Shown: positions 1 to 4,842 of the stretch, piece after piece
Layout of the letters: the number at the start of each line of letters is the position of its first letter
Position numbering within the stretch: position 1 is the stretch's first letter
From: Gillisia limnaea DSM 15749
GTDB lineage: Bacteria; Bacteroidota; Bacteroidia; Flavobacteriales; Flavobacteriaceae
DNA length: 64,000 nt
Assembly (NCBI RefSeq): GCF_000243235.1
Contig: NZ_JH594606.1
Location: 724,934-788,933 of the forward strand
Direction of reading: 5' to 3'
Notes under the pieces: generated by a model
The model's input: the letters and a program-made list of their open reading frames with translations, nothing else
The model's database searches: none
Told to the model about the DNA's origin: nothing
Translations under genes and position numbers: made by a program

Positions 1-311
1 CTTAGCAAGTCTTGGTTATAGGGCTGCTTTTTGATTGTATGAGAGAAAAAGAAATATTTTTTATTCGGAATTAAGTCCGGAATTGGCACTTCCTTTACCC
101 CCAGCATCACATCACAATTTGAAACATCTTCTGAAACCTCAAATCCTGCCTCCCGATATTCATCATCTGTAAAAACCCGTATTGCTGAAGATTCTATTTT
201 AAAGCTTGCCTCTGTAAATTTTTGAACAACTTCTTTTAGTTTTTCATGAGAAAAGACCACCCTTCTGTCTGGTGGGGTTTTACGTTCTTTGATGATGGCA
301 AATTTTATCAT
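1..311 (-). CDS. Alanine dehydrogenase / saccharopine dehydrogenase-like NAD(P) oxidoreductase, N-terminal part
   Basis: The gene starts with ATG at 311 and runs off the left edge, so only about 103 N-terminal residues are visible. The protein begins MIKFAIIKERKTPPDRRVVF and contains FFFSHTIKKQPYNQ near residues 87-100, which is characteristic of the N-terminal domain of the AlaDh/PNT family, including lysine-forming saccharopine dehydrogenases. Members are cytosolic NAD(P)-dependent enzymes acting on amino acids. The NAD-binding Rossmann domain lies outside the window, so the substrate cannot be chosen. The gene is divergent from the tmRNA and shares its upstream region. Confidence 0.8.
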   Translation of the reverse strand, partial: MIKFAIIKERKTPPDRRVVFSHEKLKEVVQKFTEASFKIESSAIRVFTDDEYREAGFEVSEDVSNCDVMLGVKEVPIPDLIPNKKYFFFSHTIKKQPYNQDLL

Positions 312-369
312 TATTGGTATAGGTTTTGCTTTAAATTGCGTGTTGCCCAAAGATATAAATTTTAAACTG

Positions 370-377
370 TATCTTTG
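370..377 (+). promoter_or_regulatory. Bacteroidota-type -7 box upstream of the tmRNA
   Basis: TATCTTTG fits the Bacteroidota -7 consensus TAnnTTTG. A TTG at 343-345 is the nearest -33-like element, but its spacing is about 24 bases rather than the usual 19-21, so only the -7 box is convincing. Transcription from here would cover the structured element at 386-463 and then the tmRNA. Confidence 0.4.
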
Positions 378-385
378 CAGCCGCG

Positions 386-463
386 TTAGGGATAGAAGAG
401 GAAATCCCGTCTAAATTTCTAAAATTTTGACGGATTGAAACGGATAGCCCGTCCCGCCTGAGT
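386..463 (+). ncRNA. Structured RNA candidate, possibly Flavo-1-like
   Basis: A compact foldable block lies between the promoter-like box and the tmRNA. A hairpin pairs CCGTC-t-AAATTT with AAATTT-t-GACGG around a three-base loop (about 412-438). It is flanked by GGGATAGAAGAGGAAATCC on the left and GGATTGAAACGGATAGCCCG on the right. From memory, the layout GGGATxGAAGxGGxAATCC / hairpin / GGATxxAxCGGATAGCCCG recurs in intergenic regions of Flavobacteriia and may be the Flavo-1 class. That assignment is recollection, not a search result. Confidence 0.4.
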
Positions 464-503
464 TTTTACGAAGGAGGGAACGCCAAAAAGTTCATTACAA
501 TAT

Positions 504-901
504 GGGGTCGACTTGGATTTGACAGCGAGTCAAATTGGGTTGTAAGCACGTAGAGCGCTGGGATATAGCTCTTAAATCTCATATTTCACACTTTTTAAAC
601 GGCGAGAATAACTACGCCTTGGCTGCGTAACCGAATTACAGTAGGTTACACTTAATCCCTACCAGGTAGGGAGCCGAGATGTCTCGTGGAAGCCTTGATT
701 TACGGCGGCCACACCAGAGACACCGAAAAAGTAAATATAGGAAGCGCAGGGCCTTGATGTTCTTCTGAAATCTAATTGAGGATACGTGTAAGATTGGTGG
801 TTTTCGGCCGGTCTTGCATCGACAATCAAGCGAAAACTAAACGTGTAGAAAGCTTCTTAATTGCTTGTTTGGACGAGGGTTCGAAACCCTCCGACTCCAC
901 C
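504..901 (+). ncRNA. ssrA: tmRNA (ssrA)
   Basis: The 5' end GGGGTCG (504-510) pairs with CGACTCC (892-898), giving the seven-base acceptor stem, followed by discriminator A899 and an incompletely encoded CCA. The T arm GAGGGTTCGAAACCCTC lies just before it. The tag reading frame at 601-630 encodes GENNYALAA followed by TAA, the typical Bacteroidota degradation tag ending in ALAA. The length of about 398 nt is normal. tmRNA rescues stalled ribosomes and tags the unfinished peptide for proteolysis. Its last 12 bases recur at 1416-1427 after a GIY-YIG gene. Confidence 0.97.
889..900 (+). repeat. Left 12-bp direct repeat, tmRNA 3' end
   Basis: CTCCGACTCCAC, the last 12 bases of the intact tmRNA, is identical to 1416-1427. 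With the right copy it brackets a 515-bp interval (901-1415) carrying a terminator and the GIY-YIG gene. This fits an attachment-site-like or target-derived duplication. Confidence 0.7.
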
Positions 902-904
902 TTC

Positions 905-947
905 GCCCTCCGAAGCTTTTGGATACAAAAGCGAAGGAGGGCTTTTT
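905..947 (+). terminator. Intrinsic terminator after tmRNA
   Basis: GCCCTCC (905-911) pairs with GGAGGGC (936-942), and GCTTTTG (915-921) pairs with CAAAAGC (926-932) around a short loop. Five T residues follow. It sits four bases after the tmRNA 3' end and should end the tmRNA transcript before the GIY-YIG gene. Confidence 0.85.
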
Positions 948-1049
948 ATCTTTAATTATCTTTCAAAATAACGAAACAAGTGAGGGCTTCGGTGGACAGG
1001 TCCACCTTATTTATTATCTTAAACGAGTTATGTATATAATTTTTTTACG

Positions 1050-1295
1050 ATGGACTTACCTTTCGGCGTGTATATATTAAAATGCTCTAATGGACAACAC
1101 TATACCGGATACACGGAAAACATAGACCAACGTTTAATAGCTCATCAAAAAGGAAAAGTCAATTTCACCAAAGACAAATTACCTGTAGAACTCGTTCACC
1201 TTTCTTTATTCCCAAACAAGAAAAAAGCCTGTTATTTTGAACGGCACCTAAAAAGCGGTTCAGGAGCAGCATTTAGAAATAAGCGGCTGTTATAA
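1050..1295 (+). CDS. Small GIY-YIG nuclease-family protein
   Basis: An 81-residue protein that is almost entirely a GIY-YIG domain. It has GVYILKC at residues 6-12 and HYTGYT at 17-22 (the GIY and YIG strands), an arginine in the following helix (QRLIAH), and a glutamate in CYFERHLKSGSG that fits the metal ligand. Small stand-alone GIY-YIG proteins of this size are common in Bacteroidota and are of unproven role; relatives nick or cut DNA. The gene lies between two copies of the tmRNA 3' end, which suggests it belongs to a small element that entered there. No Shine-Dalgarno site is visible, as is normal for the phylum. Confidence 0.85.
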   Translation: MDLPFGVYILKCSNGQHYTGYTENIDQRLIAHQKGKVNFTKDKLPVELVHLSLFPNKKKACYFERHLKSGSGAAFRNKRLL

Positions 1296-1400
1296 ACAAA
1301 AATCTGCCGGGCTTTTTCGCCTGAGCAAATTTTTTTATTTTAAGACGCCCGGACTGAAAGGACGGTTAGGCATAGCGGCATTTCCTAATGAGGAGCTCCC

Positions 1401-1427
1401 GGGGTTAGACACACTCTCCGACTCCAC
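1401..1427 (+). repeat. Decayed second copy of the tmRNA/tRNA 3' end
   Basis: CTCCGACTCCAC at 1416-1427 matches the last 12 bases of the tmRNA exactly. The preceding GGGGTTAGACACACT resembles a degenerated T arm (compare GGGTTCGAAACC in the tmRNA). The sequence further upstream (about 1369-1400) also looks tRNA-like but does not fold convincingly. A separate terminator follows at once, which would suit a former tmRNA end displaced by an insertion. Confidence 0.6.
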
Positions 1428-1436
1428 TTGATAAAT

Positions 1437-1474
1437 CGTAAATCACTTACCTGTAAGTTTTTACGGTTTTTTTT
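1437..1474 (+). terminator. Intrinsic terminator after the decayed tmRNA end
   Basis: CGTAAA (1437-1442) pairs with TTTACG (1460-1465) and ACTTAC (1445-1450) with GTAAGT (1453-1458), followed by a run of eight T. It would terminate the GIY-YIG transcript. Alternatively it is the original tmRNA terminator left behind after insertion of the element. Confidence 0.75.
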
Positions 1475-2018
1475 ATTAAGTTTTTTGTTTGATTAATGTA
1501 CGGGTGGAAAAATTTATTTCTTTATTATTCTCTTTTAAAATAATAGACTAGTTCTTTTAGGTTACCGTTTTAGTCTGGCTCCCGGCTTAGAAACTACTTA
1601 CGCTGATTTTATGCCCGATTTGGTTAAAAATTAAATTAGAGAATCTTTTTCTAATTCGAATTAAATTATACAATCAAGAAAGCACGACCTCCTTCATAAT
1701 CCTTTAGCGAAACAAAGACTTAATGAAATTGAAGGCTTCAATGAGCTGCAGCAGTTTTGTAAATCCAGTTATATTCATGTTTGATCCACAAGATTTAATA
1801 GTATTTTCAGTCAAATATTTTCCAATGTACAAAAGTACAGTTGGGCGGAGGTAGAGGCTATTACGATTTACTATTGGTTATTATTGAAAAAACAACATCA
1901 CGGACTTTAACCGACAATAGTAAAGCTTTAGTCGTGAACCACGTAAAAAGAAAAATTTCGATTGATTGCTGTTCCTATTCATAGTGTGTTTTCTTCAGAT
2001 TTAAAACCTTCTATTTTT
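1475..2018. other. Gene-free decayed stretch
   Basis: No intact gene is visible. Short broken frames occur. One around 1840-1975 reads GGRGYYDLLLVIIEK, which faintly recalls the nucleotidyltransferase part of a NT-HEPN protein, but it is interrupted by stops and cannot be assigned. The stretch probably consists of gene debris continuous with the DUF72 remnant that follows. Confidence 0.35.
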
Positions 2019-2435
2019 TGGACCAGGCCTCGCAACCTGGTCCAATTACCTTCAAACTGGAAGCGGAATTATTCCCGACTCGACAAATTTTTACTGGAGA
2101 CGTCAAAGGAACTCCGCTGGGTGTTAAAAAATAGCGATACGGACTGGTTTTCTCCCGAATCCTATGAGCTCCGTAGACAGAATGATGTTTCCCCTGTTAT
2201 GCTAGATATGATCAAAGATCATCCTGTTGAGCTTACTGCAGACTGGTTTTATTCAAGTTTCCAAGGACAAAATTACAGCGGCAGTTATACTGAAAAAGTA
2301 CTACAAAAGATTGCGGGAATATATTGGGATGGGAAAAGATGTTTTCACTTATTTCAATAACGATCTTGGGGCCACGGCATGCTAAATGCGATCACCTTGA
2401 GGGAGAAGTTAAGGGTAGAAGAAAGTCCTGCCTGA
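2019..2435 (+). pseudogene. DUF72 (YecE-like) protein remnant
   Basis: The C-terminal half of a DUF72 protein can be read across two compensating frameshifts. The first frame gives VQLPSNWKRNYSRLDKF, WFSPESYELRR and QNYSGSYTEKVLQKIA. An extra A near 2331-2341 moves the reading to KDVFTYFNNDLG. One missing G near 2368-2376 moves it to GHGMLNAITLREKL, ending at TGA 2433-2435. The motifs YSGSY and VFxYFNNDxxGHxxxNA are typical of DUF72. The N-terminal half is absent. The remaining open frame would encode 132 residues, but it is unlikely to be functional. Confidence 0.7.
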
Positions 2436-2735
2436 TAAACAATATTTTAGTTGAGAATTTTCAGTAACTCCAAAACATAAATTCGGATTTACTCAGGAAG
2501 ACAACCTGGGAGGTACTTTAAATCTCAACAACTTTTTTCAAACTTTCATAAAAAGAAGATCATTTTTCTTTCAGTAAATTCTCTCCTCCAGTTATAGATT
2601 CCCTGCTATAAAAATACCTATCTGCCCCCATAGGAATGTTCATTTCATCTACATACTTTTAAAGTAATCAAAATTTTATCATCGCAAAATAAGTTTATAG
2701 CTTATGGATGCAGGGTTAAAAATAGACCTAAACTG
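2436..2735. other. Spacer with no recognisable gene
   Basis: About 300 bases of AT-rich DNA precede the lipoprotein gene. A short minus-strand frame around 2570-2660 is open for only about 30 codons and resembles nothing I recognise. The promoter of the downstream pair probably lies here, but no clear TTTG / TAnnTTTG pair was found. Confidence 0.3.
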
Positions 2736-4349
2736 ATGGGTATGAAAAAAAGTTATTTTTCTTGCATGATGGGGCTTTTGGCTGCTTTTTTTTTGTTAAT
2801 CACCTGCTCGCCCAACCCATTCTTTTTTAGGTCTAACTACACCGACACTAACTCTCTTATCCACCAGAGAGAAAAGTTACAGGAGGAGCAATTTCTTAAA
2901 GCTCATCTTAAGAATGGGGAAGTTCATATCTTCCGGGAAATGTGGGCTGTTGATACCATTCAGGATCTCGTTATAGGGAAGGGGAGTTCATATGACTTTA
3001 ATCGGAAAAAAATCTCTGAAGGTCAAATTTCTATCCAGATAGATAGTGTAGCCATTTTTGAAACCAATTCCAAACTGGAGGGCACAGAAAAGAAGCGAAT
3101 AAGGGCTCTAGGAATTCTGGCCGGCGTGGACGTCGCGATAGGAGTCTTTTGCCTTACCAACCCAAAGGCTTGCTTTGGCTCTTGTCCTACTTTTTATATA
3201 GATGCACAGGATAACTTTCATTATGCCGATGCCGAAGGTTTTTCAACTGCCATTTCCCCTTCGATGGAATACTCAGATATTGATGCTCTGAATCCCCAGT
3301 TCATCAACGAAAATTCCTTCTCCATTACGATGAAAAATGAGGCGCTGGAAACCCATGTAGTGAATTCTGTAAATCTTATCGCCTTTCCTCTCCAAAAGGA
3401 TGAAAGGGTACACCAATCCCCACAGGACGAGTTTTACCTTTGCAGAAATATCTATAGTCTGAAAAAAGCCGTAGGTAAAGAAGGTGAAATCACCGGCCTG
3501 CTGCAACAGGCAGATCGTAAGGAACGGTTTTCCCTGGCAGATGAAGAGAACCTTAGCAGTAGAGAAGAGATCTTCCTTACGTTTGAAGACGTAAAAAAGC
3601 CAGAAAGCCTTGGCCTGTCACTAAGTTTTCGACAAACACTCATGACCACCTATTTCATATACAGTGCTATGGGTTATATGGGAGATGAGGTGGGGGACAT
3701 TTTCGCCAGGATAGAAACTTCAGATTCAACTGCAGAAAAACTTAAGAACGGGATCAAGAAAGAATTGGGTAAGATCGACATATATGTATGGAACCCTAAG
3801 AAAGAAGACTGGGAATTCCAGGCCGGATTTTATGAAACCGGGCCTATTGCATTCAACCGACAGATCCTTCCTTTCAGTTCCTCTGTTACAGGGGAGGAAA
3901 TAAAAGTTAAGCTTGTTCTTAATAAAGGCCTCTGGCGACTGGACCAGGTTGAATTGACCAATATTGTGAAAAAGGTGGAACCGGAAGTGTTGGACGTTTG
4001 TGAAGTGAAGAAAAAGGGAATTACAGATGCTGTTGCAAAAGCTGAGATTCTTGGCGACGAGCGCTACTTAATTTCAATGCCTGGAAACGAATATCAGTTT
4101 ATTTTTGAAGTACCGGGAGCGCCCCAGGAATACGAGCTGTTCCTGGTTTCAGGAGGCTATTATATTGAGTGGATGCGGGAAAGCTGGATAAAGGAAAAGG
4201 ATATTCTCAAACTTAAACAGATGGTTGACAATCCCAGCAGATATCTCAAAGAGGAAGCAAAAAGCTATAAAGAGTACGAGCGCAGTATGGAGCAGGAATT
4301 CTGGAATTCAAAAATAGATACCAAAAACTTTCCTCATTATGGAACCTAA
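2736..4349 (+). CDS. Large putative lipoprotein of unknown function
   Basis: A 537-residue protein with a lipoprotein signal: a hydrophobic stretch at residues 10-22 and then LLITC, making Cys24 the likely lipid-modified residue. A second methionine (MKKSYF) two codons later is an equally good start, at 2742. After the signal, the first half contains a short hydrophobic segment near residues 125-140 and GSCPTFYIDA, with several cysteines. The rest is beta-rich with no motif I recognise. It overlaps the next lipoprotein gene by 11 bases, so the two are co-transcribed and probably act together at the membrane. Function unknown. Confidence 0.75.
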   Translation: MGMKKSYFSCMMGLLAAFFLLITCSPNPFFFRSNYTDTNSLIHQREKLQEEQFLKAHLKNGEVHIFREMWAVDTIQDLVIGKGSSYDFNRKKISEGQISIQIDSVAIFETNSKLEGTEKKRIRALGILAGVDVAIGVFCLTNPKACFGSCPTFYIDAQDNFHYADAEGFSTAISPSMEYSDIDALNPQFINENSFSITMKNEALETHVVNSVNLIAFPLQKDERVHQSPQDEFYLCRNIYSLKKAVGKEGEITGLLQQADRKERFSLADEENLSSREEIFLTFEDVKKPESLGLSLSFRQTLMTTYFIYSAMGYMGDEVGDIFARIETSDSTAEKLKNGIKKELGKIDIYVWNPKKEDWEFQAGFYETGPIAFNRQILPFSSSVTGEEIKVKLVLNKGLWRLDQVELTNIVKKVEPEVLDVCEVKKKGITDAVAKAEILGDERYLISMPGNEYQFIFEVPGAPQEYELFLVSGGYYIEWMRESWIKEKDILKLKQMVDNPSRYLKEEAKSYKEYERSMEQEFWNSKIDTKNFPHYGT

Positions 4350-4842
4350 ACCTCTCATCTTAATACTCCTGCTTATAAGTTTTATTAGCAGTTGCAGTGC
4401 TCCCAAATATGTACCCAAACTGGAGGAGGTTCCCTTCAGTGCCTACGGTTCCCATATAGAGATAAAACAGCTCTCGGGAGCCGAAATTGAAGGTGAGTTA
4501 ATTGCCGTCGATAGTAAAACTCTGTTTGTCCTAACTGCCGCGGATTCAATTAAAAAGCTGCACAATTTACCGGTAAGTGATATAGAGAAATTCAAACTCA
4601 CCTATGCGCAGCCAAAAAGTTATGCCTGGACCATCCCCGTCTACACGCTATCTACGGTAAGTCATGGTTACTTTGCATTATTTACGGCTCCGGTAAACGC
4701 AGTGGTAACATCTGTTGTCACGGCGCGCGGTGCCAATGCCTTTACTTATAACGAACAGGTGATGAGCTATGAAGAATTAAGCAAGTTCGCCCGGTTTCCA
4801 CAGGGTATCCCGCCAAAGATAGATAGGGCAAGTATCAGGTAA
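4339..4842 (+). CDS. Small putative lipoprotein
   Basis: A 167-residue protein with signal peptide and lipobox ISSC (Cys19). The mature part begins with a small beta domain (EIKQLSGAEIEGELIAVDSK), which looks like an SH3/LSm-type strand set handling a single ligand. It continues with a hydrophobic segment (IPVYTLSTVSHGYFALF, about residues 98-114) and an Ala/Val-rich stretch that may contact the membrane. It overlaps the preceding lipoprotein gene by 11 bases and was therefore called as the second gene of that operon. Function unknown. Confidence 0.75.
   Translation: MEPKPLILILLLISFISSCSAPKYVPKLEEVPFSAYGSHIEIKQLSGAEIEGELIAVDSKTLFVLTAADSIKKLHNLPVSDIEKFKLTYAQPKSYAWTIPVYTLSTVSHGYFALFTAPVNAVVTSVVTARGANAFTYNEQVMSYEELSKFARFPQGIPPKIDRASIR

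Follow-up and report, generated by a model that had tools for sequence, protein, structure and literature searches.

What places the end of a tmRNA twice in a row, once on its own gene and once behind a small nuclease gene? The window analysed here, a stretch of 64,000 nucleotides from a 3.97-Mb Flavobacteriaceae genome, has this arrangement at ssrA. The original prediction, made from the letters of the DNA, was of a nuclease that targets a tRNA-like 3′ end and carries a replacement for that end. We compared the locus with those of relatives and surveyed small GIY-YIG genes next to tRNA and tmRNA genes; genomes and loci are identified below by our own numbers (G and L). Support for the idea of a nuclease with a restored end turned out weak at the ssrA copy and good for the class of genes linked to tRNAs.

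Results

A repeated tmRNA 3′ end at ssrA

The tmRNA gene (ssrA, tag GENNYALAA) was located on the forward strand at 504-901 by ARAGORN and at 504-902 with Rfam RF00023. A position search of both strands of the 64 kb found the 12-base sequence CTCCGACTCCAC at two places only, inside the tmRNA 3′ end (889-900, +) and, as an exact copy, at 1416-1427. Immediately 3′ of the tmRNA, a terminator-like hairpin (903-947, +) is apparent by eye, and a CTTCGCCCTCC-type hairpin block also trails the tmRNA end in GIY-carrying relatives whose loci were inspected. It is followed by the palindrome GGTGGACAGGTCCACC (991-1006), a motif common to many ssrA-linked GIY loci, where a regular expression matched it in 13/30 loci (L131-L160) and where it was seen by eye in most loci of another set. 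The palindrome precedes a gene for an 81-residue, single-domain GIY-YIG nuclease of the ssrA-linked subfamily (1050-1295, +). From 1294 to 1427 (+) runs a stretch, homologous to repeat units 3′ of the tmRNA in relatives, that amounts to a degraded unit without its first third. It contains a terminator-like hairpin (1299-1338, +, by eye) with a counterpart in an alignment of nine units, and closes with a degenerate T-arm and acceptor end (1401-1427, +), namely GGGGTTAGACACACT at 1401-1415 and the second 12-base copy. Beyond it lies a further terminator-like hairpin (1437-1476, +, by eye); positions 1433-1476 are 82% like the sequence 3′ of a tRNA-Ser in G004. The exact repeat, the 515-bp interval (901-1415) holding a second terminator and the 81-residue protein, and the terminator of the second copy are all as originally described. 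No integrase gene was found in 901-1415, where the open reading frames of at least 40 aa were the GIY gene and short frames overlapping the tmRNA.

A match of at least 12 bases between the tmRNA 3′ end (41 nt) and positions 903-1500 arose in 21 of 20,000 order-1 simulations. Chance was considered as the source of the repeat and was rejected, because in relatives the homologous sequence is found as a repeat unit that ends in the same way. Of the degenerate T-arm proposed ahead of the copy, the stretch at 1401-1415 is present, while its gapped alignment to the tmRNA is borderline, scoring 28 against a shuffle maximum of 26 and, under other gap costs, 26 against 27. In the bracket test described below, the window narrowly fails against its shuffles (26 versus 27).

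Directly upstream of the tmRNA is a Flavo-1 RNA (RF01705; 375-458, +) at 42.9 bits, the cut-off being 42; a loose-threshold Rfam search of positions 1-3000 returned the tmRNA and Flavo-1 only. On the other side, a 132-codon frame (1962-2360, +) matches only positions 86-183 of the 217 of DUF72 (PF01904), and is probably a truncated gene in a degraded stretch after the ssrA unit. Farther along, most long frames between 26000 and 63600 resemble, by eye in the list of open reading frames, sugar-precursor and glycosyltransferase genes, and the region is probably a polysaccharide cluster.

The GIY-YIG protein and its ssrA-linked relatives

The protein belongs to the GIY-YIG superfamily: it scores 55 bits against PF01541 (cut-off 22.6; E 1.1e-14), and its sequence includes VYI and YTG, which we take to be the positions of the GIY-YIG motif, together with R28 and E64, presumably catalytic. 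It is also UPF0213-like, its best solved relatives being UPF0213 proteins (PDB 1zg2, E 1.5e-10; 1ywl, E 1.3e-4). At E 0.001 it matched no NCBIfam family and no PHROG; the proteins P0001 and P0002 weakly match PHROGs for GIY-YIG or homing endonucleases. GIY-YIG homing endonucleases usually have a separate DNA-binding part. The protein here is one domain with no such part, which counts against a homing reading.

The ssrA-linked gene forms a lineage of its own. Its closest named carriers are Salinimicrobium and Gillisia, and the named matches are assigned by their titles to Flavobacteriaceae, Bacteroidales, Cyclobacteriaceae, Crocinitomicaceae and others, several of them MAGs. Presence is patchy, with matches in 36 of 397 genomes of the family (E 1e-12); a tmRNA was present at 17 of 30 loci fetched from these 36. 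Among 19 loci with relatives of the gene, nine had a tmRNA upstream on the same strand, and three beyond these nine (L039, L042 and L043) showed, by eye, an isolated tmRNA-like 3′ end and then the same terminator. Codon comparison, with dN/dS of 0.03-0.16 in the 8/28 pairs for which it was computable and dS saturated, indicates that the gene is under purifying selection. In G402 (L161, about 2280-4620), four nearly identical tandem units of 472 bp, each consisting of terminator, palindrome and GIY gene, stand behind the tmRNA. These units repeat the terminator and not the tmRNA end, which counts against a restored end at ssrA.

Repeat units behind ssrA in the genus

A DNA search of 16 genomes of the genus with window positions 504-1500 as query gave, besides the tmRNA, short matches to window positions 1294-1440 (query 791-937) and parts of them. 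The ssrA units, about 156-187 bp long, combine a hairpin and a terminator with a variable hairpin and a T-arm-like end, GGGTTCTATAAACCC, to which CTCCGACTCCAC is usually attached. Two units lie 3′ of the tmRNA in G001 and in G008, and one unit with a remnant in G002 and in G003; the T-arm-like end is kept in the units of these four genomes, and in most units the tmRNA 3′ end is kept too. In G006 three units are found beyond about 26 kb of inserted DNA, and in G006, G007 and G015 alike the units are displaced 15-26 kb downstream of the tmRNA, behind inserted DNA. Units in G001, G008 and G006 are thus tandem with an RNA 3′ end in each, like the tyrT (rtT) repeats of E. coli, and the window has one degraded unit. 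A structure fitted to nine units has 41 pairs, with 348 of 367 cells paired and two-sided change at 20 pairs, uncontrolled figures derived from and scored on the same alignment. Across G001, G002, G003, G006 and G008 the hairpin architecture is common while the stem sequences change. The repeat units may be transcribed and structured.

If the gene had brought the second end with it, relatives lacking the gene should lack that end too. No GIY gene was seen in the stretches read 3′ of the tmRNA in G001, G002, G003, G006, G007, G008 and G015, and all of these nevertheless carry units (15-26 kb downstream in G006, G007 and G015), contrary to the expectation. Among 12 full ssrA loci the GIY gene is present at ssrA in G000 and G005 only and was not seen in the ten others, and G005 has the gene and no second tmRNA 3′ end. 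The second ssrA end is therefore independent of the gene in cis, and a requirement for the gene in cis was rejected. The proposal that gene and restored end form one unit at ssrA is also weakened here, given G005 and given that only 2 of 17 tmRNA-adjacent GIY stretches passed the bracket test (15 of 17 unbracketed). From the gene-less units of the genus and the 2/17 brackets, the stretch 1294-1427 is therefore best read, as a matter of sequence comparison, as a degraded unit of an ssrA 3′-end array. On the reading favoured in the Discussion, the second copy at 1416-1427 would be a unit of the type proposed there for tRNA genes, of older date and either displaced or without the gene, and the case for a restored target at the ssrA copy itself is weak.

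The main rival explanation takes such units for the scars of attachment sites. Tyrosine integrases of islands use the 3′ ends of tRNA and tmRNA genes as insertion sites, so that one restored and one displaced end remain, and the small GIY genes would be cargo or neighbours. Tyrosine integrases do stand directly after the tmRNA in G009 and G007 (Pfam Phage_integrase), and the distant units of G006, G007 and G015 begin where the tmRNA sequence has its 3′ end; against this, units of about 50-190 bp occur without an integrase. Evidence from tRNA loci, given below, bears further on this explanation.

Small GIY-YIG genes beside tRNA genes

Small GIY genes, collected from the 16 genomes with PF01541, adjoin tRNA-Asn, Arg, Leu, Val and Ser/Pro as well as tmRNA. 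A tRNA or tmRNA on the same strand, at most 400 bp upstream or 150 bp downstream, was found for 15 of 61 GIY stretches of the genus; the other 46 had no nearby tRNA, which counts against a tRNA-directed reading. On the opposite strand, none of the 170 GIY stretches collected had a tRNA or tmRNA within 400 bp. The loci were partly fetched with tRNA-linked seeds, which bears on these location counts. Another Rfam RNA was considered as the partner of the tRNA-less genes and was rejected: Rfam searches gave no match to any other RNA at the 20 loci of a first set and only tRNA matches in a second set of 20. Searches of 199 family genomes each with the Val-linked and the Pro-linked protein matched 16 and 27 genomes, respectively, and tandem copies were frequent among these loci.

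We then asked of each stretch with a close tRNA whether the far side of the GIY stretch holds a piece of that same tRNA scoring above 100 shuffles (the bracket test); the surveys were limited to GIY frames of at most 220 aa, and identical stretches were counted once. Over all targets, brackets were found at 25 of 54 stretches with the gene after the tRNA (3′ type) and at 21 of 26 with the gene before it (5′ type). When tmRNA, Ser and Stop/SeC calls are set aside, a decayed tRNA 3′ part accompanied the gene in 20/28 stretches of the 3′ type and a decayed 5′ part in 19/24 of the 5′ type. This is the excess of end duplications beside such genes that had been predicted, here for tRNAs. Bracketed same-strand genes occur beside tRNA-Val, Pro, Arg, Asn, Leu, Ala and Glu, and the frequency depends on the target: 12/14 for Val, 9/9 for Pro (5′ type), 3/7 for genes before Arg and 1/7 for Ser, where the tRNA mostly adjoins a Pro locus. 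Which end is copied corresponds to the side on which the gene lies: 18 of 25 3′-type copies reach the tRNA 3′ end and 19 of 21 5′-type copies start at the 5′ end. One break recurs, the fragment being exactly tRNA positions 1-22 for Asp, for Arg and Ala twice each, and for Glu of a Patescibacteria MAG. A search of one Patescibacteria MAG gave eight matches, including two loci with tRNA-Glu after the gene, one of them L051 again. By eye, the displaced tRNA pieces are often interrupted by palindromes.

Target preference is stable among relatives. Of 54 proteins compared, all with a tRNA close by and with Stop and SeC calls excluded, 42 had a nearest relative (at most 80% identity) that shared both target and side, where 1,000 shuffles gave a mean of 6 and a maximum of 16. 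These observations bear on another explanation, in which the gene encodes an ordinary UPF0213-like, structure-specific repair nuclease whose place beside ssrA is historical. Its UPF0213 relatives and the purifying selection suit that account, but clustering at the same target, the strict strand, tandem copies and patchiness are unlike a housekeeping gene, and we consider it very unlikely.

Many 5′-type genes also run into the tRNA. In 16 of 24 5′-type stretches the stop codon of the nuclease lies inside the tRNA, at tRNA positions 10, 15 or 22-23, whereas only 3 of 206 tRNAs without a GIY gene were entered by an open frame of at least 200 nt. Part of this overlap stems from closeness, because the first stop is commonly a TAG at tRNA positions 8-10.

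Filled and empty alleles at two tRNA genes

For tRNA-Arg and tRNA-Pro, filled and empty forms of one site were found. G011 and G001 have a single intact tRNA-Arg, and the flanks of the G000 locus match both; there, a 5′ part broken by a palindrome, a GIY gene and an intact tRNA follow one another, and the locus is about 380 bp longer. The empty form of the tRNA-Pro site, in G015, consists of tRNA-Ser, a 27-nt spacer and an intact tRNA-Pro. In G009 and G014, which have the filled form, the spacer is very similar and leads to a broken Pro 5′ part, a GIY gene and an intact Pro; ahead of the intact Pro is an element-like stretch also present in other genera. Among the four Ser-Pro loci read that are empty, only G015 has the matching spacer, and the spacers of G000, G001 and G004 differ. 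By these comparisons, therefore, it is the broken copy that occupies the native position, and the tRNA that works is joined to the nuclease gene.

A native end displaced and a working end beside the nuclease is a layout that fits target restoration, and homing with restoration would explain it in one step. The predicted replacement for the target end thus has a counterpart in the layout at tRNA-Pro and tRNA-Arg; at ssrA a second copy exists without the gene. The same layout can also be given by duplication and decay of one copy. This rival supposes plain tandem duplication around tRNA genes, by recombination or slippage as at the E. coli tyrT repeats, with the GIY gene a passenger. Brackets as well as alleles are expected from it, and in G000 the ten bases ahead of tRNA-Arg are repeated too. 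That the copies end at recurrent places (tRNA 1-22, T-loop 57/58) and that the end copied matches the side on which the gene lies speak against it. For attachment scars, the 5′-type loci, with a copied 5′ part and a nuclease frame entering the tRNA, are unlike a 3′-end attachment site, and the empty and filled alleles differ, in the stretches read, by the GIY segment.

tRNA end copies in five genomes

In five genomes, each tRNA and tmRNA gene was searched for copies of its own ends, a copy being a match with a score of at least 26 and above 100 shuffles; tRNAs less than 700 bp from the end of a locus were left out. Downstream copies of the own end were found for 11 of 44 genes tested in G000, 7 of 45 in G001 and 8 of 43 in G009, and for none of 42 in G015 and none of 43 in G004. 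Upstream copies numbered four in G000, five in G009, one in G015 and none in G001 or G004; four of the five in G009 and the one in G015 had no GIY gene. Small GIY genes (<150 aa) were six and a fragment in G000, three in G001, five in G009, one in G004 and none in G015. Their number and that of the end copies are weakly correlated over these five related genomes, in which cause and kinship are not separable, and with that restriction the contrast between 0/42 or 0/43 and the other three genomes argues against duplication. Tandem arrays common both with and without GIY genes argue for it. On balance we consider plain duplication unlikely.

The gene is not needed in cis for a tRNA end copy, because tRNAs without a GIY gene have downstream copies in three of the five genomes. 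Four loci of G000 (L055, L059, L063 and L064) are GIY-less tandem arrays in which tRNA 3′ ends are linked to dispersed repeats, for example GTTTATCCTGAGCGTAGTCGAAGGG or CCCGATAGCTATCGGG, in the T-loop or close to it.

Of the 26 downstream copies in G000, G001 and G009, 18 begin at T-loop position 57/58. Integrases also use this region, and displaced 3′ parts that often begin there suit attachment scars. Taken with the integrase-free units, the 5′-type loci and the alleles, we regard the attachment-site explanation as rather unlikely, though it comes before the others.

Discussion

The reading that we favour, with a probability of about 0.55, places the gene of the window, as a member specialised for ssrA, in a group of free-standing, small GIY-YIG nucleases; at tRNA and tmRNA genes, this group would act in the manner of homing elements that restore their target. 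On this reading, the nuclease would cut an empty tRNA gene inside the gene, and repair would take an occupied locus as template for both the nuclease gene and the tRNA end that goes with it. The tRNA that works would then combine the old half with the end newly acquired, and the native end, now displaced, would decay on the far side: a 3′ part where the gene comes after the tRNA and a 5′ part where it comes before, as the brackets are arranged. Cleavage and homing by these proteins would thus account for the bracket rule and for the two pairs of alleles. Since the rebuilt target would again be open to cutting, tandem arrays and units without the gene would also be accounted for.

The original prediction of a minimal nuclease with a restored target, directed to tRNA, is in keeping with the brackets and the Pro and Arg alleles of tRNA loci and is weakly supported at the ssrA locus on which it was made. 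In its wider form, our proposal is that Bacteroidota and Patescibacteria harbour mobile elements of little more than one GIY-YIG gene, which enter genes for tRNA or tmRNA and restore them with a tRNA end that they bring along, many of the 5′ type with their own stop codon inside the rebuilt tRNA, and whose re-cuttable target would lead to tandem multiplication, gene-less units and tRNA loci reshaped over long times; we lean slightly towards it. The family of genes at tRNAs is probably selfish. If the proposal is right, no smaller kind of tRNA-directed mobile element is known from bacterial chromosomes; these elements would also be a common cause of the tRNA fragments and tandem repeats beside tRNA genes of Flavobacteriia, and would tie chromosomal genes to a mechanism just described in phages, that of SegB. 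In the open-licence PMC literature we found no description of chromosomal GIY-YIG genes bracketed by tRNA pieces.

Among known systems, genomic islands at tRNA and tmRNA 3′ ends, which are present at ssrA in this genus, likewise have a restored end at one junction and a displaced one at the other. Islands, however, carry a tyrosine integrase and are kilobases long, whereas the units here measure about 50-500 bp and hold at most a GIY gene. The tyrT repeats of E. coli (rtT RNA), tandem units each with a copy of a tRNA 3′ end, are known from one locus and have no nuclease gene; the ssrA units resemble them in being tandem with an RNA 3′ end in each. The SegB protein is longer than the GIY-YIG proteins described here.

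SegB of phages T4 and T6 is a GIY-YIG homing endonuclease whose free-standing gene lies in a tRNA cluster (PMC13096335; PMC2988022). With its active site it is required for tandem amplification of the phage tRNA-Tyr gene, and its cut sites lie within tRNA genes, at the motif RAWTSGAAC (PMC13096335). Read on the other strand, GTTCSAWTY, this motif would correspond to the tRNA T-loop, where most displaced pieces in our survey start. Like SegB, the genes here adjoin tRNA genes; unlike that phage gene, they lie in the chromosome, encode a single domain, have tRNA fragments as brackets and in many cases overlap the tRNA. The accessible part of the SegB account describes no replacement tRNA end (PMC13096335). 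Such a replacement is known from mobile ORFs of fungal mitochondria, in Allomyces atp6 and in Glomus atp6, atp9, cox2 and nad3, where an endonuclease (of the GIY-YIG type in atp9) enters the gene and supplies a working end, with the native end displaced downstream (PMC3630166). Those ORFs target mitochondrial protein genes, whereas the targets here are bacterial tRNA and tmRNA genes, entered at either end and found in tandem arrays. By analogy, SegB and the fungal ORFs together suggest a nuclease that would rebuild its own target and hence amplify it.
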